DNA of 64,000 bases from Gemmatimonadota bacterium. GTDB lineage: Bacteria > Gemmatimonadota > Gemmatimonadetes > Longimicrobiales > Gaopeijiaceae. Under the pieces are notes generated by a model, which worked only from the letters and a program-made list of their open reading frames with translations, made no database searches and was not told the DNA's origin. Where the stretch lies: positions 1 to 64,000 of the forward strand of contig JAPPGF010000036.1 of NCBI GenBank assembly GCA_028875075.1. Direction: 5' to 3'. The stretch's first letter is position 1, and every line of letters starts with the position of its first letter. A program made the position numbers and the translations under genes. Below are positions 1,687-33,872 of this stretch, piece after piece.

Positions 1687-4467
1687 GTGAAAGTCCCCTC
1701 CAAGACCGTCCCTCGCCTCTTCCTGATCGACGCCTACGCACTCATCTACCGAGCGTTCTTCGCGTTCGTCCAACGTCCGCTCATCAATTCTAGGGGAGAG
1801 AACACGTCCGCGCCCTTCGGCTTCACGAACTTCTTGCTCGAAGTGCTAGAAGAATGCAAACCCGACTACTTGGCGGTTGTGTTCGACGCGGGCACAAGCG
1901 GACGCAACGAGATCTACCCCGGCTACAAGGCTACGCGGGACGCGATGCCGGACGAGCTCAAGTGGAGCTTGCCTCGCATCAGTGAGGTAATCGATGCGTT
2001 GGGCGTCCGGCGCATCGTACTGGACGGGTGGGAGGCGGACGACGTGATCGGGACGTTGGCGCAGCGCGCGGTGGAGGCCGGGGTGGAGGCGGTCATCGTC
2101 TCGGCGGACAAGGACTACTATCAGCTTGTGGGCTCTCACGTCGTACTCATGAATCCAGGTCGCGGCGGCGCGACTGGGGTCGGAGCGGAATGGGTGGACG
2201 AGACCTCCGCGCCTAGGAAGTTTGGCGTGCCTCCTGCCCGGGTAGTGGATTACTTGGCACTCGTTGGCGACGCTTCTGACAACGTGCCTGGGGCCCCCGG
2301 CATAGGACCGAAGACGGCGCTCAAGCTTATCGAGGAGTACGGCGCCGTCGAGGACATCCTCGCACACGCGACCGACGTGAGCGGTCGGCGTACACGCGAC
2401 AGTCTACTCATGCACGCGGACACGGTGAGGCTCTCCAAACAGCTCGTGACGATCCAGACCGATGTCCCACTCGGTGGGCTGGAAGTGGAACACCTCCGCG
2501 TGGGTGAGCCAGACTATGCGCGTCTGCGTGAGCTGTTTGTGGCGTTGGAGTTCCGCGCGCTCGCGAACCAGTTCACTCGACCTGCGGCCTTGGCAGGCGC
2601 CGTCGAGCCCGAGGTGTCCACTGGTCGCACGAGATACCTGGCAATCACCGAACCCGACCGGGTCGGTAAGCTAGTCGCAGGGATCCGGGAACGGGGCTGG
2701 GTGGCGATCGAGTGTGAAACCAGCGCGCCGGACGCTATGCGCGCGGGGTTGGTCGGGATTGCGCTCGCGGTGGACGCTGGGAAGGCCTACTACCTGCCAT
2801 TTGGGCATTGCTCGCCCGGCGAATTCGAGCTGGGCGCCGGTGCCCAGGGGGTCGCCAACCTCCCCATGTTTGATGACCCGAGGATCGCGCCGCTCAGGGA
2901 CCTGCTTGAGGACCCGGACATCCGGAAGATCGGCCAAGATCTGAAGCGCGACTTGATCGTACTGTGGCGGTGCGGCGTAGAGCTGGCCGGTCTTTCGTTC
3001 GACACGATGGTCGCTTCGTACGTGCTCGACCCCGGTCGGCGGACCCATTCGCTCGAGGCGCTAGCACTGGATGTCCTCGCGCACAAGACGACCTCCTACG
3101 CCGATGTGGCCGGCCGCGGCCAGAAACAGATCTCGTTTGCGCAGGTCACGCTCGATGCCGCACGGGACTACGTGTGCCAAGGTGCGGACTATTCGCTGCG
3201 CCTCCACAAGCGTTTCCGTCCGGAGCTCGAGGAGCAGGGGATGGACGTACTCTTCCACGAGCTTGAGATGCCGCTCGTTCCGGTCCTTGCGCGCATGCAG
3301 CGACACGGCGTGCGCATCAATGAGGGCTTCTTCCGCGCGATGAGCCGGAAGCTCAATGAGGAGCTGAAGCTCTTGCAGCAGGAGATATGGAAGGAATCGG
3401 GTACCGAGTTCAACCTCAATTCCACGCTCCAGCTGCGGGAGGTGCTGTTCGAGAGACTCGCGCTACCGGTGATCAAACGCACCAAGACAGGACCCTCGAC
3501 AGACGCCAGCGTTCTGGCGGAACTGGCTGGCCAGGGCCATCGTGTACCGTTGGCGCTGCTTGAGTACCGAGAAATGGAGAAGCTTCGAGGGACCTACGTG
3601 GACGCACTCCCGGCGCTTGTCAGCCCTGAGACCGGCCGAATCCACACTTCGTTCAACCAGACCGTCGCGGCGACCGGTCGGCTCTCCTCGTCGGACCCCA
3701 ACCTCCAGAACATACCGGTCCGCACCGCCCTAGGTCGAGAGATCCGCAAGGGGTTCGTAGCCGAGGAGGGCTATCAACTGCTCGCGGTCGACTATTCGCA
3801 GATTGAGCTCCGCATCCTCGCCCACTTTTCGGGCGACGCGCCCCTCGTGAACGCTTTCCGCCAGGGGATCGACGTACACCGGCAAACCGCAGCCGTCGTT
3901 TTCGACGTGCCGATCAACAAAGTGAACGCGGAGCAGCGCGCGCAAGCAAAGACCATCAACTTTGCCACACTCTACGGGCAGGGCCCGTTCGCGCTTGCGC
4001 AGCAGCTAGGCACTTCACAGACGGACGCTAAGGCGTTCATCGATGCCTATTTTGAGCGATTTAGCGGCGTGAGGCGCTACTTGGACGAGATGGTGGAGAT
4101 GGCGCGCGAGAAGGGCTATGTCGAGACCCTCCTCGGGCGCCGCCGTTTCATCCCCGAGCTGGGGAGCCGAAACTGGAACATCCGGCAGTTCGGCGAGCGC
4201 GTGGCGCAGAACACGCCGATCCAAGGCACGGCCGCCGATCTAATCAAGACGGCGATGATCAATCTGGACCGGGCGCTCGAAGCGTCTGGTTGGGGCGCCC
4301 GCCTGCTGCTCACCGTACACGACGAGCTGCTGCTCGAAGTACCCGAAGATCATGTCGACGACGTTGGTTCTATCGTGGTCGAGCTGATGAAGAACGCGAT
4401 CACGCTCGACGTGCCGGTCGACGTCGACTACGGCATCGGCGACACTTGGTACGCGGCGAAGCGTTGA
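1687..4467 (+). CDS. polA: DNA polymerase I
   Basis: Full-length 926 aa with 5'-nuclease domain (LIDAYALIYRAFFAF), Pol A motif DYSQIELRILAHFSGD, motif C VHDELLLEVPE; GTG start. Confidence 0.96.
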   Translation: MKVPSKTVPRLFLIDAYALIYRAFFAFVQRPLINSRGENTSAPFGFTNFLLEVLEECKPDYLAVVFDAGTSGRNEIYPGYKATRDAMPDELKWSLPRISEVIDALGVRRIVLDGWEADDVIGTLAQRAVEAGVEAVIVSADKDYYQLVGSHVVLMNPGRGGATGVGAEWVDETSAPRKFGVPPARVVDYLALVGDASDNVPGAPGIGPKTALKLIEEYGAVEDILAHATDVSGRRTRDSLLMHADTVRLSKQLVTIQTDVPLGGLEVEHLRVGEPDYARLRELFVALEFRALANQFTRPAALAGAVEPEVSTGRTRYLAITEPDRVGKLVAGIRERGWVAIECETSAPDAMRAGLVGIALAVDAGKAYYLPFGHCSPGEFELGAGAQGVANLPMFDDPRIAPLRDLLEDPDIRKIGQDLKRDLIVLWRCGVELAGLSFDTMVASYVLDPGRRTHSLEALALDVLAHKTTSYADVAGRGQKQISFAQVTLDAARDYVCQGADYSLRLHKRFRPELEEQGMDVLFHELEMPLVPVLARMQRHGVRINEGFFRAMSRKLNEELKLLQQEIWKESGTEFNLNSTLQLREVLFERLALPVIKRTKTGPSTDASVLAELAGQGHRVPLALLEYREMEKLRGTYVDALPALVSPETGRIHTSFNQTVAATGRLSSSDPNLQNIPVRTALGREIRKGFVAEEGYQLLAVDYSQIELRILAHFSGDAPLVNAFRQGIDVHRQTAAVVFDVPINKVNAEQRAQAKTINFATLYGQGPFALAQQLGTSQTDAKAFIDAYFERFSGVRRYLDEMVEMAREKGYVETLLGRRRFIPELGSRNWNIRQFGERVAQNTPIQGTAADLIKTAMINLDRALEASGWGARLLLTVHDELLLEVPEDHVDDVGSIVVELMKNAITLDVPVDVDYGIGDTWYAAKR

Positions 4468-4486
4468 GCGTCGACCCGACCGCGCT

Positions 4487-5149
4487 TCAGTCGGCGGCGA
4501 AGCAGTAGAACAAACCAGCGCCACCAGATCCGGCGAGATTCTCCTGTGAGCAGCCTCGGCTCGGATGCGCTTGGTTCCACGGTGAGCCGGGAGTCTGGAA
4601 GGTGAAGCGGTCGTGGTGACCGACCATCGCGCTTCCCTCGGCGCTACTCGTCCAGTTGTTACAGGTCCGGTCATCTCCGGTTGGGAAGGCAGTTCCGTCG
4701 AGCTGCGTCCCCGTCAAGATGTCATGCATGTTCGGGGAGTCGCCGTTGGCACCCGAGTTCACCGGTTGGCCGTTCTCGTTGAGAGCGTTCTCGTAGTTGA
4801 TCGCCGCATTGTTGTAGTGTAGGTCGTCCACACCGGCCGCTATCCGGAGGCCTGCAGCGTTGAACCACGGCCCCTCGCCGATACGGTCTCGAGCGTTGAC
4901 AGCGGGTTGTTCCCCTGTGGCCTGTGTGCTCAGGTAGGCCCGCCAAGTGCGGTCGCGCTCTCCCGCTGCCTGAGCCAACGCTTCACAGTGGGTGTCGGCC
5001 CCGTCGAGACCACCGAGGTCAGCGCCGTTTCCCAATCCGACACTCGTGATGAAGAATCCAAGCGGCTCTTCCTGCGCGAAGCCACGGCTCGGAAGCGCAA
5101 TCGCGCAGGTCAGCACCACGGCCGTTAGGATCCACTTTGTGCTCATCAT
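4487..5149 (-). CDS. Secreted lectin/endostatin-fold-like protein
   Basis: Signal peptide MMSTKWILTAVVLTCAIALPSRGFAQ, then 'GADTHCEALAQAAGERDRTWRAYLST...DRTCNNWTSS...GCSQENLAGSGGAGLFYCFAAD' with conserved Cys/Trp pattern. Confidence 0.65.
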   Translation of the reverse strand: MMSTKWILTAVVLTCAIALPSRGFAQEEPLGFFITSVGLGNGADLGGLDGADTHCEALAQAAGERDRTWRAYLSTQATGEQPAVNARDRIGEGPWFNAAGLRIAAGVDDLHYNNAAINYENALNENGQPVNSGANGDSPNMHDILTGTQLDGTAFPTGDDRTCNNWTSSAEGSAMVGHHDRFTFQTPGSPWNQAHPSRGCSQENLAGSGGAGLFYCFAAD

Positions 5150-5298
5150 CGTCGCTCCTCGCACGGGGGCAAGCACTCGTTCGGGGACCAAGCGCAAAAT
5201 GGCATCCGCGAACGCGGTGGACCAGGGCGAGGTCCTAACCTGGCTTCGTCTGCCTAGATCACTGCGCAGGAACTGACCATACGGGAGCCCTCTGGCTG

Positions 5299-7323
5299 TC
5301 ACAGCCATCTTCGGAACCGACGATCCACCGAGACGACCCACTCCCAGTGTCCGTTGTTCAGCCCGCGGCCTAGGTCGAAGTGCACGACGTTCCAACCGAG
5401 TCCGAGGCCGGGCCCGGCCGACGCTAGGACGGAACCGTCCCTCACCGCTCCCGCAGCGGCGAACATGCGCAGGGCCACCCAAGGATCAAAGAGCGCAAAG
5501 GTCGCTTCGGCGCTTGCTAGCCAGAAGCCGTTCCCCGACTGCGCACGGAACGGATGACCGGGGAGGGTTCCCCGTCCGCCGAGGTAGTACAGCTGTTGGG
5601 GCGGTACGTCACCGAACGCGAAGCCGGCATGCACGCTTGCTCTTAGGTCGACGTCCGTCCCTAACCCGACACGTTCCCACTGCAGAACACCGTGAGTTTG
5701 ACCCACAGCGTTGACGTCTTCGTAGCCGTCCGGGTCGAACCAGCCGAGCTGACCGACAACGTCGAGCGCAAGGGCGTCAGTGAGCGCCTTTGAGTGCGAA
5801 AGCTCGATTGTGCCCAACCATCCTTTGGCGACGCCGGGCAGCGGTCGGTACCGACGTGCGTCATGGGGATCGAGCGCGGTGCGCGACGGGTCGTGCCGCT
5901 CCCACGTCAGCGACAGCCGGGTGGAAGCGTCGCTTGGTGCACTGCCCAGGAAGATCGAGAAACCCGAGCTGACCCAAGGGTCAATCCAGTCGCCTTCCCC
6001 AGTTAGCGCCAGAAACGTATTGAGGCCGTGGGACAAGCTGGCCAGTGGACCTAGATCGCGAAGCTCTCTCCAAAACGCTCGTATCCCCGTGCGCCCGCTT
6101 GCGTTCTCGATCGCTACGGTCGCCGAGGGGCGGCCAGCCCCGAACCCCCAGCCTCCGTGTGCCTTCACAACCCGGTCGCCACTGGGGCGCCAAGCGAGTC
6201 CAAGGCCTACGAAGGCTTGCTCGCCCCTGTTCCAACGGAAGACGTGGGAGACAGAGGGCACATACAGCCGGAGGGGCGCGAGCCCGCTCAAATAGCGTCC
6301 GGCGGTGAGCTCCAGCGCGCGCGCACGAATCTCCCGCAGGGATGGGGTTTGAGCAAGCTCCGATGCCTCCGCCTCGGGAATGAGCGATTCACCGAACGGG
6401 TAGCGTTCACGCTCCGCTTGAGGAGCGGCGGTGACCGTTGATCCCAAGAACAAGTGGTCGGGCAGCTCAACGTTGAACTCGTAGTCGCTAATCTCGAACC
6501 GACCACGAATCACACTTCCAGCCAGGAAGTCGAACAATGGCATCTCACGCCGAATCTCAACTTCCTGCCGATACGGAAGCCACCAGCGTCGTCTCCAAAG
6601 CGAATTGTCGAGCGAGATCCGTATGTAGTCCAAGTACCGGTCCACATACGAGGCCGGAGTGAAGGTGAACGTCATACGTACGATCGCTGCGGTTGCCCGA
6701 TCCAAGAACACGCTGCCGACAAAGCCGGGCTCTGCCAGACGCTTGGGCCGAACCTGCACTTCGTTCACCCGGACCATGAACTCCGTGCCCGGGGAAGCGA
6801 TCGCGAGGGAGTCGCCCAACCGGTAATCGTATACCGTTTCGGCTCCAGGTGCGGCAGGGTGGAGCACGGCTTCCACCTCGTCGCCGTCACCTAACCGGAT
6901 CCGATCGGCGAAGTCATCCTGTACGACAGTAAGGTGGTCGAGGTGGTAGCGAATATTGGTAGGAAGCAGCTTCTCGTCGCGCAGGCCAACAATGCGTTGT
7001 CGGGTGCCACGCGGGGCACGCCAGTAGACCTCGAGCGCGATCTGGTCAGCCTTCACCAGCATGCGTCGATCCGTATCAGGACGATCGATCAGGAAGAAGA
7101 TCCGGCCCGTTGCATTCGACCGATAGGTGCGCAGACCGGGGTCACTGGCCAGACCTTGGCGTACGTCACGCGCCCGCCGGATAAGTTCTAGGGCCGTGTC
7201 CGTGTTCCATCCGTCCCGTTCCGTGTCCTGCGATTGTGCCGTCGCGGGCCGTAACGCAAACAGGAACATGAGCCCCATGGTTTGCCGCCAGCGGGGTCGC
7301 AGCCTTCGGAAGCCAGTAGACAT
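5299..7323 (-). CDS. Outer-membrane protein with BamA/surface-antigen-like C-terminal beta-barrel
   Basis: Signal-like N-terminus; C-terminus 'YLGGRGTLPGHPFRAQSGNGFWLASAEATFALFDPWVALRMFAAAGAV' resembles Omp85-family barrels. Confidence 0.6.
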   Translation of the reverse strand: MSTGFRRLRPRWRQTMGLMFLFALRPATAQSQDTERDGWNTDTALELIRRARDVRQGLASDPGLRTYRSNATGRIFFLIDRPDTDRRMLVKADQIALEVYWRAPRGTRQRIVGLRDEKLLPTNIRYHLDHLTVVQDDFADRIRLGDGDEVEAVLHPAAPGAETVYDYRLGDSLAIASPGTEFMVRVNEVQVRPKRLAEPGFVGSVFLDRATAAIVRMTFTFTPASYVDRYLDYIRISLDNSLWRRRWWLPYRQEVEIRREMPLFDFLAGSVIRGRFEISDYEFNVELPDHLFLGSTVTAAPQAERERYPFGESLIPEAEASELAQTPSLREIRARALELTAGRYLSGLAPLRLYVPSVSHVFRWNRGEQAFVGLGLAWRPSGDRVVKAHGGWGFGAGRPSATVAIENASGRTGIRAFWRELRDLGPLASLSHGLNTFLALTGEGDWIDPWVSSGFSIFLGSAPSDASTRLSLTWERHDPSRTALDPHDARRYRPLPGVAKGWLGTIELSHSKALTDALALDVVGQLGWFDPDGYEDVNAVGQTHGVLQWERVGLGTDVDLRASVHAGFAFGDVPPQQLYYLGGRGTLPGHPFRAQSGNGFWLASAEATFALFDPWVALRMFAAAGAVRDGSVLASAGPGLGLGWNVVHFDLGRGLNNGHWEWVVSVDRRFRRWL

Positions 7324-29974: not shown

Positions 29975-30551
29975 CAACGGCCATCTGTTCAGCGCAGTGA
30001 ACGAGCCTTGCGTGTAGCTCAAGCAACTCTGGTCAAGACATCGATGTCGATCAGATACGCGGACTAGATCGAAACGCGACGATGCCCGTGCCGATGCCGT
30101 GGCCGGGGTGGTGCCAGCGCACCCACTTGGGAAACCAGGGTGCCCAACAGCGCTCTGCAGGTTGGGCCTAACCCGCTCCTCCAATGGTCATGCCTCGTCG
30201 ACGGGCAACCCCCCGCCAGCCGTCCACGCCCCTGATAACTGTCAAGGACAGGAAAGAATTGCAGTCAGACCTCAACACCACCCCGCTCCACGTTGTCGCG
30301 CACCGAAGCAGAGATTAGTATGCCGAAGCCTCGTCAATACGCAAAGCGCCTGTCCTGACACGAGATGCAGGGATCCCACGAGGGCGTTCTGGTGGCCTAG
30401 GGCCGCCTTCTATCCACAACCGAATAAGCTATTCCTGCTTACCGGCGGGCGCAAAGGAAGATGCCGGGCGCGTACTACTTCCGTTACGCATGACACGCCT
30501 CGCCGCGGCAGTGAGGGTTGGCACTTGGTCTGTCCCCGGACGATCGACCTA

Positions 30552-30734
30552 GTGGCCTCAGGGACGGGCGGAAGCCTCGTGCTCAAGGGTATGCTCGCGT
30601 GGTGCGACTCCCGCGAGCAGGACGTCCGTCGAGCGGGCGAGCACTCCATCGTAGTCGGTGAGGGCGTAGCCTGTGACGTGTGCAACGACGACCCGCTCGA
30701 ATTCCGCAGTGAGTACGGAGGGATCACTACGTGA
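30552..30734 (+). CDS. Small hypothetical protein (60 aa, CxxC) coupled to downstream membrane protein
   Basis: GTG start; stop overlaps the next gene start as GTGA; 'GTGGSLVLKGMLAWCDSREQDVRRAGEHSIVVGEGVACDVCNDDPLEF'. Confidence 0.45.
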   Translation: MASGTGGSLVLKGMLAWCDSREQDVRRAGEHSIVVGEGVACDVCNDDPLEFRSEYGGITT

Positions 30735-31348
30735 GGAAATGGTCCTCTAGGATCGCTTGGATTCCAGCGCTCTTGGTCGGGGCGGCGGCGGCCGCGACTG
30801 CGGAGATGGCGCTCGGCCTTCTATTGTACATGCGTGCCGGGGTGCTGACTGCGCTGACCCTCGTCCTATGTATCCAGGCGTCAGCCCTGGGATGCGGGCT
30901 CTGGTTGGCACCACGTGACTCGGCACCTCCCTGGGCGGGCGTGCGCCGGGCGTGGATCTTCCTGGTGCTTGCGTACGTCGGAGGCACGGTGCTTGCAATC
31001 AGCTGGGAAGCCCTAGGCGGGCTCGCGTCAACATGGGTGCAACGCGGGCTCGGACTCGCGATGCTCACCGCGTTGCCGCTCTACGCAACAGGTCTCGTGC
31101 TCGGTGCGCCGGCGTTGAGCCAGAGAACGGGAGTCACGGGACCGGTCGCCGCGTTAGGAGCTGCTATCGGATTTGCAGGTATAGGACTAGGGGGTATTGA
31201 TCTCCATGTGGCCGCGTCGGCCTACGTAATGGGCATCACCCTGGCTTCCGCTGCCGCACTCATTCACGGCTCCGTGCTCGAAGCTCGTGCACGTCGCTGG
31301 CAGGAGTGGGCGGAGCCGCCGCTCCCTCCGTCGAGTCCTGTTCCTTGA
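30731..31348 (+). CDS. Multi-TM membrane protein of unknown function
   Basis: Several hydrophobic helices; overlaps both neighbours' start/stop codons. Confidence 0.7.
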   Translation: MRKWSSRIAWIPALLVGAAAAATAEMALGLLLYMRAGVLTALTLVLCIQASALGCGLWLAPRDSAPPWAGVRRAWIFLVLAYVGGTVLAISWEALGGLASTWVQRGLGLAMLTALPLYATGLVLGAPALSQRTGVTGPVAALGAAIGFAGIGLGGIDLHVAASAYVMGITLASAAALIHGSVLEARARRWQEWAEPPLPPSSPVP

Positions 31349-32520
31349 TACTCGCCCATCTAGCCGACCTGCATCTCGGTTTTCGGGCATACCCACGCGC
31401 GGCACGGGGTCACAACGTGCGAGAGGGAGACGTGTGCGATGCGTTTCTGCGGGCGGTCGACGAGCTCACTCGATTGGCTCCGGACGCGGTGCTGATCGCG
31501 GGCGACGTGTTTGACCAACCCGACCCTCCTCCCCGAGCGTTGGTTACGCTCACGCAAGGGATCCGGAACCTCCGTGACGCGCTTCCGAGCACGCCGGTGC
31601 TGATCGCAGCCGGACCGCGGGACATGCCCGTTCAGTTCGGCGACCGTTGTGTGCTGAGCGCGCTCGACGCGATCCCGGGCGTGACCACGGCTGTGGAGAC
31701 GCCGCGCGCAGTGCGCGTGGGCGATGCCAACGCGGTGCTGTTGCCGCACCGTGCCAGTAGCGCTGCTGCCACTGGAACCGCGGGTGGTAGTGAGCCTGAC
31801 GCCAGTGCCCGCTGGAACGTGCTCGTAACGCACGCGCTGGCGGCGTCGGCAGCGTCACCCGCACGCAAACATGCATCTAGTTGGCCTCGGTCCGCGAGGG
31901 GCCGAGCCGACGATCCAGCCTCGCCTGATCGAGCACCGCTACGTACTGAGATCGACCCCGGAGTATGGGACTATGTTGCCTTGGGGGGAGAGCATGTGCA
32001 GAGAACCCTTCTCTCGCACGTGCGCTGGGCGGGCTCGCTCGAGCGCGTCGGTTGGCGACCCTGGAACGAAGCGCTAGAGGAAAAGGGGTTCCTCACCTAC
32101 GACTTAACGCGCAAGCGCGCGCGCTTCCATCCCGTGCATGTTCGGGCCGTGGTTTCGCTTGCGCCGATTCGTGTACTCCCTGGTCAGTCGGATCGCCTGC
32201 GTCTTCGCATGCGCGAGGTTATCGACGAGGTGCCGGGAGGGATCGACCAGAAGATTGTGCTTGTGCGAGTACGGGGTGCCGAGCCGCCCGATCTCGCTGG
32301 AATCGTCGAACCCCTCGTGTCGGCCCTGCGCCAGCGGGCCTTGCACCTCTCCGTCGTCCTGGAGGATGTCGATGTCCGAGCCCCTGTGGCACTGCCCGGG
32401 GGTCCGCTGTACCCGCGTTTGGCTGAACTGCTTGTTGAAGAGGGTGTCCCGAGCGATAAGGCACCTGGTCTTGCGGGTGCGCTATTGGGCGAGATGCCCA
32501 GCGAAGCGGAGACGCCATGA
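31345..32520 (+). CDS. Mre11/SbcD-like metallophosphoesterase with degenerate active site
   Basis: 'ILAHLADLHLGF', 'VLIAGDVFDQ' kept; GNHD replaced by GPRD; GHxH replaced by 'YVALGGEHVQ'; TTG start overlapping upstream TGA. Confidence 0.75.
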   Translation: MILAHLADLHLGFRAYPRAARGHNVREGDVCDAFLRAVDELTRLAPDAVLIAGDVFDQPDPPPRALVTLTQGIRNLRDALPSTPVLIAAGPRDMPVQFGDRCVLSALDAIPGVTTAVETPRAVRVGDANAVLLPHRASSAAATGTAGGSEPDASARWNVLVTHALAASAASPARKHASSWPRSARGRADDPASPDRAPLRTEIDPGVWDYVALGGEHVQRTLLSHVRWAGSLERVGWRPWNEALEEKGFLTYDLTRKRARFHPVHVRAVVSLAPIRVLPGQSDRLRLRMREVIDEVPGGIDQKIVLVRVRGAEPPDLAGIVEPLVSALRQRALHLSVVLEDVDVRAPVALPGGPLYPRLAELLVEEGVPSDKAPGLAGALLGEMPSEAETP

Positions 32521-33872
32521 AAATCATGGCGCTCACGGGCCTGCGGGCCGCGGATCTGCCACCCCTTGAGGCGGAGTTGGGTGACGGCATGGTGGCGCTG
32601 ATAGGGACGTCGGAGGATGCGTCTGAAGCACGGCGCGCGTTGCTCTGCGCGGTCACCATGGAAGAGCCGGGAGTGCGCGTGTCGGGACGAGTGTCCGGCG
32701 CGGGAGCCGAGCTGCTGTGGGGGGGCTCGGGCGGAGTCACGGAGGCGGTCGAAGCAGCGGCAGCTTGGATCGCCGGGCCTGCGCTCGAGCGGGTCCACGC
32801 CGCGCGCACTGCCCTCGACTCACTTCCGCCCGTTGGTGGGCCCAGCGATTCCGGAGACAAGAAGCACGACAAGGCCATGCGTCGGCTAGAAGGCGCTTCG
32901 GAGGAGCTGCGTGCCGACGAACTGGCCGCGCGTGAGCTGCGCGCCGAATGGGCCGTGGTCACGGGCGACACCGAACAGGCCACCATGGAGTGGCTGCGCG
33001 AAAGGCAGGACGCCGAGACCACCCTACAAGCGTACAGAGATCACGCGCGTGAGCTCAGAGCGCGGCTCGGACAGCTCGATACAGGCGGTGCGGAAGCACC
33101 GTGTCCGACATGTGGGAGACCCCTGGCGGATCACCTGAGCGACGTACGCATTCGGCTTCGGGAGGAGTGGGAGTCCATCGTGCAGGACGGCAGCTGGTGG
33201 AAGCGCCGGCGCGAACAACTAGAGGACAAGCCCGAGCAGTTGCGGACGCTTGAGGAGCGCACGCTTCGGCTGCATGCCGCGATGCAGGAGGCCACGGAGC
33301 GTCTTGAGATTGCTCGGAGGCGTCTGCGCGAGGGGGAAGCGCTCCACAAGTCCGCTCAGCCTGAGCCCCACTGTCCGGAGGGACGGGCACTCGCACGTTT
33401 GGCTGCTGAGCTTCGCCACCGGGCGCTCGCGACCGTGCTCTGTGAGGCCGGACGGCTCGCCGAGCGGATCACAGCCAGTCGCGTACTTTGGATCCGATTG
33501 GGCGAGGAAGGGCCCATTGGTGAGGGTACCTCCCACGCGGGCGCGCCGGCCGCGCACGACCGAGCCGCAGTCGATCTCGCCTGTCGGGTAGCGGCAGCGA
33601 CGCTTGCCAGGGGTGCGGGGGCACCGCTGGCTGGAATGATCGTCGGAGAGGCGCTGGAGGCGCTGGATCCCCAGGATCGGCTGCGTGCTGTTGACGTGCT
33701 CGGCGAAGCAGCTGATGTGCTGGGCCAGGTTGTGATCGTCACGGGGACCGATCTCGTGCACAGCCGGCCGGAGGCCTTCGCGGTCGCCTATTCGTTACGA
33801 GGGGACGCCCGGGAAACGGAAGCGCTCCAACCTCTCGCCGTCGGCGCGGCGACGCTTGAGCTAATCGCCTAG
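32517..33872 (+). CDS. Rad50/SbcC-like coiled-coil protein with degenerate ATPase motifs and CPTC zinc hook
   Basis: Zinc-hook 'APCPTCGRPL' between coiled coils; Walker A position 'LIGTSEDASEARRALL'; Walker B/D-loop 'GMIVGEALEALDPQDRL'. Confidence 0.7.
   Translation: MKIMALTGLRAADLPPLEAELGDGMVALIGTSEDASEARRALLCAVTMEEPGVRVSGRVSGAGAELLWGGSGGVTEAVEAAAAWIAGPALERVHAARTALDSLPPVGGPSDSGDKKHDKAMRRLEGASEELRADELAARELRAEWAVVTGDTEQATMEWLRERQDAETTLQAYRDHARELRARLGQLDTGGAEAPCPTCGRPLADHLSDVRIRLREEWESIVQDGSWWKRRREQLEDKPEQLRTLEERTLRLHAAMQEATERLEIARRRLREGEALHKSAQPEPHCPEGRALARLAAELRHRALATVLCEAGRLAERITASRVLWIRLGEEGPIGEGTSHAGAPAAHDRAAVDLACRVAAATLARGAGAPLAGMIVGEALEALDPQDRLRAVDVLGEAADVLGQVVIVTGTDLVHSRPEAFAVAYSLRGDARETEALQPLAVGAATLELIA

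Follow-up and report, generated by a model that had tools for sequence, protein, structure and literature searches.

We describe a Mre11-Rad50 (MR; SbcD-SbcC) pair in a Gemmatimonadota bacterium that is best read, with a probability of roughly 0.6, as a retired MR complex that persists as a scaffold, dimerised by its hook, independent of ATP and probably associated with the membrane. The pair lies in a 64,000-nucleotide stretch of DNA (the window) from a genome of 2.6 Mb that is 92% complete. A sequence-only reading of the window had proposed a non-catalytic, possibly membrane-linked MR-like complex, and this proposal is supported by what we find: motif loss across the family, purifying selection, an MR fold and coupling of the genes. 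Mre11-Rad50 is among the most conserved DNA-break machines. In the openly licensed literature that we searched we found nothing on point about a catalytically dead MR complex or about Gemmatimonadota SbcCD, and no earlier account of an MR complex whose catalytic centres are degenerate throughout a lineage; MR fusions as such are already known.

Results

The Mre11-like partner keeps the ligands of one metal site

Both partners are encoded on the + strand. The Mre11/SbcD-like protein (MPE; 31345..32520, 391 aa, TTG start) was assigned from profile matches to Mre11 and its orthologs, and the Rad50/SbcC-like protein (RAD; 32517..33872, 451 aa) from AlphaFold2, Foldseek and profile matches. The two ORFs are joined by an ATGA overlap (32517-32520), so that the window carries the split form of the pair, and further start/stop overlaps lie upstream (GTGA at 30731-30734, TTGA at 31345-31348); the ORFs, motifs and overlaps that had been listed from the sequence were all borne out by the coordinates read in the window. 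MPE consists of a phosphoesterase domain, a capping-like domain and then a C-terminal helical segment. It matches the NCBIfam Mre11/SbcD models at E=2e-10 to 3e-10, and a family profile, which took in six intact orthologs, finds M. jannaschii Mre11 in the PDB (3auz) at E=1.6e-32. Together with a Foldseek match of a fused relative to 3av0_A (E=4e-15), this places MPE in the Mre11-type calcineurin-like phosphoesterase fold.

We scored the catalytic motifs by aligning 72 dereplicated relatives against 18 intact orthologs from other families, which are intact (18/18) at every MPE motif position scored. Motif I, DLHLG (31366..31380, +), with the Asp and His that are metal-1 ligands, is kept in 72/72 members of the degenerate family, and the bridging Asp of motif II, GDVFDQ (31501..31518, +), in 71/72. 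Motif III reads AGPRD for AGNHD (31609..31623, +, with GPRD at 31612-31623): the metal-2 Asn and the catalytic His are each found in 0/72, with Arg at the position of the His in 70/72. Motif V reads GGEH for GHxH (31984..31995, +), the first His lost and the last kept; across the family the first (metal 2) is present in 4/72 and the second (metal 1) in 69/72. The motif IV His is present in 51/72. With these few exceptions the relatives have the DxH and GDxxD motifs of Mre11/SbcD and are without GNHD and GHxH. In P. furiosus Mre11, D8, H10, D49 and H208 bind metal 1, N84, H173 and H206 bind metal 2, and H85 is catalytic; part of this scheme is also given in PMC3175470. Read through this ligand scheme, the degenerate MPE keeps the predicted ligands of metal 1, while those of metal 2 and the catalytic His are removed. 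The sequence-only reading had MPE keeping DLHLG and GDVFDQ with GNHD and GHxH altered, as we also read them; its wider statement, that both partners have lost their catalytic motifs, holds for GNHD, GHxH and the Walker motifs but is slightly too strong for MPE, because DxH, GD and the last His, which are the ligands for one of the two metals, are near-invariant.

Near-invariant metal-1 ligands, together with an Arg for the catalytic His, could signal altered but real catalysis. Because these ligands (69-72/72) and the new Arg (70/72) are so strongly kept, under more constraint than a scaffold needs, the main rival to a scaffold is a re-tooled one-metal phosphoesterase, in which the Arg would replace the charge of metal 2, the substrate would be altered or not DNA, and the Rad50-like part would act as a dimerising arm. 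We consider such an enzyme unlikely, since the motif IV His is relaxed, both other metal-2 ligands are lost, and no substrate-linked neighbour gene was found at the loci.

The zinc hook is the best-kept part of the Rad50-like partner

RAD is laid out as a shortened and degenerate ABC head with an antiparallel coiled coil. Its zinc hook, CPTC (33102..33113, +), is identified in the window sequence and in the family alignment, and of the 21 columns that are invariant when RAD is aligned, 20 fall in the conserved hook block (residues 142-246; 32940..33254, +). CxxC is present in all 68 aligned family members, a set that was picked on the motif, and is invariant also in two alignments, of 33 and of 37 sequences, that were not. 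Within the degenerate family the pairwise identity is 0.61 in the hook against 0.21 and 0.33 in the two head lobes; in intact orthologs the hook stands at 0.45 and the lobes at 0.63/0.67. Conservation along RAD is thus inverted relative to its intact relatives, with the hook as the best-kept part.

Upstream, and overlapping MPE through TTGA, is the gene of a 205-aa membrane protein with 6 hydrophobic segments (30731..31348, +). It is found 5' of MPE in 60/72 family loci, where as a rule it overlaps or abuts the start of MPE, and is missing in 12/72. The membrane protein of many relatives (for example L045 1688-3013 and L051 1745-3013) has an extra C-terminal domain that resembles spermidine synthase; the Pfam match is weak and the glycine motif looks degenerate. 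The protein in the window is without this domain. A flavin-reductase gene is found upstream in 52/72 loci and was not found in 20/72. In the window (30439-30734) it is cut to its C-terminal third, and it is full-length in congeners. The remnant (30552..30734, +) is the ORF that had been described as a 60-aa CxxC protein; it is 60% identical to residues 111-155 of a congener's 165-aa flavin reductase, so that its CxxC is incidental. Of the four overlapping genes in the sequence-only reading, the start/stop overlaps stand and the 60-aa protein is rejected as a component of the complex. Neither the membrane-protein nor the flavin-reductase gene was seen beside intact orthologs (0/18, many of these loci having short flanks). 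A HerA gene seemed by eye to lie beside intact relatives (L129/L130), but an NCBIfam scan of the gene gave no match and we do not claim this linkage.

A hook that is the most conserved part of RAD, and a flavin reductase upstream in 52/72 loci, would also be expected of a zinc or redox sensor, in which the hook cysteines sense zinc or oxidation and are tied to the flavin reductase and the membrane protein; a bacterial tRNase, RloC, is described as zinc-responsive (PMC2610378). We find a sensor less probable than a re-tooled enzyme, given that the flavin reductase was not found in 20/72 loci, that the window's own copy is truncated, and that no output domain can be made out.

A predicted ABC-head fold that lacks its catalytic motifs

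Walker A is present in 18/18 intact orthologs and in none of the degenerate family members examined; in the window the former P-loop position reads GTSEDASEARRALL (32604..32645, +). The former ABC signature region, GAPAAHDRAAVDLA (33540..33581, +), aligns to SGGEED of intact orthologs, and the former Walker B/D-loop, MIVGEALEALD (33636..33668, +), to LLILDEVFGSLD. In many relatives SGGEED, LLILDEVFGSLD and ITH of the intact C-lobe have become SEEDLA, EEPFDRLD and SRGD, and in the window these three elements are eroded further than this. The aligned C-lobes are without the signature SGGE, the Walker B DE and the switch His of Rad50/SbcC, and the earlier description of RAD as having no P-loop, signature or Walker B and a CPTC hook matches what is read in the window. 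RAD is also short, 451 aa in the window against about 800-835 aa in intact orthologs.

Family scans of RAD gave weak coiled-coil matches only. An anti-phage system was considered and rejected, the PADLOC hits being weak coiled-coil matches to LmuB only. The profile of the degenerate RAD family finds P. furiosus Rad50 in the PDB on the C-terminal lobe (E=3e-7). The AlphaFold2 model of the window's RAD (pLDDT 89.9, pTM 0.63) matches SMC/Rad50 heads in Foldseek with E to 4e-9, consistent with an ABC-head fold, and the model of one fused relative (pLDDT 87.7, pTM 0.85) gives Mre11/SbcD matches. Whole-length TM-scores are low and rmsd high, as expected because the coiled-coil geometry differs, and the models support the predicted fold class rather than detailed geometry. 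An MR fold, which the sequence-only reading had named as something that structure prediction ought to recover, was obtained in the predictions.

The kept MR fold is what one would also expect of a canonical SbcCD nuclease that still works through displaced catalytic residues, but with the P-loop absent, the signature and Walker B lost together with the switch His, and RAD only about half as long as in intact orthologs, we regard this as very improbable.

Loss of the catalytic motifs is shared across the window's family

An MPE homolog is found in 52/59 good genomes of the window's family. Close relatives with intact motifs were sought, and none was found among the members of this family that we examined; the intact homologs come from families elsewhere in the order and class, and orthologs in sister families are 18/18 intact. 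In a tree of 88 MPE sequences, with the second SbcD of the window's genome (intact motifs) as outgroup, the degenerate set falls on one side of a single branch (100/96), which amounts to one change. Because the degenerate clade is monophyletic and the outgroup has intact motifs, the simplest reading is that the motif loss arose once, in the ancestor of the window's Gemmatimonadota family. In pairwise comparisons dN/dS lies between about 0.05 and 0.45 (at dS <0.7, unsaturated), which indicates that the degenerate pair is under selection. The motif table and the dN/dS values bear out the expectation that motif loss would be shared by the sampled relatives under purifying selection, and on this evidence the loss is a lineage trait and not decay. 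Common descent of the degenerate pair from an intact MR pair is established at the level of sequence.

The pair is a single ORF, typically of about 830-840 aa, in 44 dereplicated family loci. In relatives that are not fused the MPE and RAD ORFs adjoin, and the intact orthologs are two separate genes. A viral origin of the fusion was rejected, since a scan of viral contigs gave no close relative and only MPE matches of 25-26% identity. Two cases sit oddly in their genomes: a degenerate fusion (L154 in G187, family f4, and L062) on a lone 3.8-kb contig of an other-family genome, which is likely mis-binned, and a degenerate pair labelled Gemmatimonas phototrophica (L089/L040), whose species label is probably misassigned because it groups with the window's genus and has the degenerate pair.

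Constraint may be weaker in the window's own genome, as its MPE branch is among the longest in the tree and its flavin-reductase neighbour is broken. This is qualified by the identity of the window's MPE and RAD to their congeners (58-60%), which is in line with the surrounding genes (73% for the conserved amidase, 69% for the conserved agmatine deiminase, 50-52% for other flanking genes). The same long branch and broken neighbour would favour a decaying pseudogene pair or an assembly error, a barely credible reading that we reject, since the same motif loss recurs family-wide across dozens of genera with open frames, dN/dS is well below 1 and the hook is sharply conserved.

Canonical SbcCD in the genome and the family

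A separate canonical sbcCD, which the sequence-only reading had suggested looking for, is present in the window's genome (G000) on contig C7 (locus L056, about 2149-6511, minus strand). It is intact, with GNHD, GHIH, Walker A, SGGEQ, LDEGFGSLD and ISH; it shares SbcD/SbcC homology with the degenerate pair, and it alone of the two has intact motifs. This second SbcCD was not found in two sampled congeners nor in most of the family. Its closest matches are in genera g23, g26 and g27, at 45-48% identity. It is possibly a horizontal acquisition, or else a matter of binning. Among 81 genomes at least 90% complete, about 40 have the degenerate pair only, 25 have both, 11 have canonical SbcC only and 5 have neither; the counts are approximate, as the genomes are mostly drafts and were sorted by hand with TIGR00618, the cut between SbcC and SMC being judged from E-values and positions.

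Discussion

The kept genes and the best-preserved hook point to a new, non-cutting structural job for the degenerate pair. In the scaffold reading, an intact MR pair would, on a single occasion in the family ancestor, have lost the two-metal nuclease chemistry as well as ATP binding and hydrolysis. In the MPE part, where Arg stands in for the catalytic His, one metal site would remain and serve in structure or in ligand binding, and the ABC head would retain its fold with its catalytic motifs gone. Dimerised by the zinc hook, the protein would then form a scaffold, V-shaped or ring-like, that does not depend on ATP, and the upstream membrane-protein partner would probably position it at the membrane. 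The motif losses suggest that ATPase and nuclease activity are absent. Hook dimerisation, presumably zinc-dependent, is inferred by analogy with MR complexes in which the zinc hook is reported to be a constitutive dimerisation module (PMC6969161). The adjacency of the membrane-protein gene suggests membrane association, and a scaffold role would be in keeping with these features.

The degenerate pair resembles bacterial and archaeal Mre11-Rad50 (SbcD-SbcC), which is ancestral to it and survives as intact orthologs in sister families, in its domain order, in its Mre11 phosphoesterase and Rad50/SMC head folds, and in its antiparallel coiled coil with a CxxC zinc hook. It differs in the absence of Walker A, of the signature and of the switch His, in the loss of the metal-2 site and the catalytic His, in its shortened protein, and in a hook that is better conserved than the head. 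With its N-terminal MPE and C-terminal Rad50-like part in one polypeptide, the fused form at the 44 family loci resembles Mimivirus R555-type fusions. Such Mre11/Rad50 fusions have a sporadic distribution that takes in viruses, plasmids and a small number of cellular organisms, and in R555 Walker A/B are retained along with most of the catalytic residues of MPE (PMC3175470), whereas the fusion described here is inherited vertically within a single bacterial family and is degenerate in both catalytic centres.

For the family as a whole we suggest, more tentatively and at somewhat less than even odds, that MR has been turned into an enzymatically dead, hook-centred membrane scaffold, leaving about half of the members without a catalytic MR complex. 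Such a lineage raises the question of how DNA ends are processed without the canonical MR nuclease, and the degenerate pair would be a natural separation-of-function experiment, in which hook and coiled coil are kept without ATP or nuclease activity.
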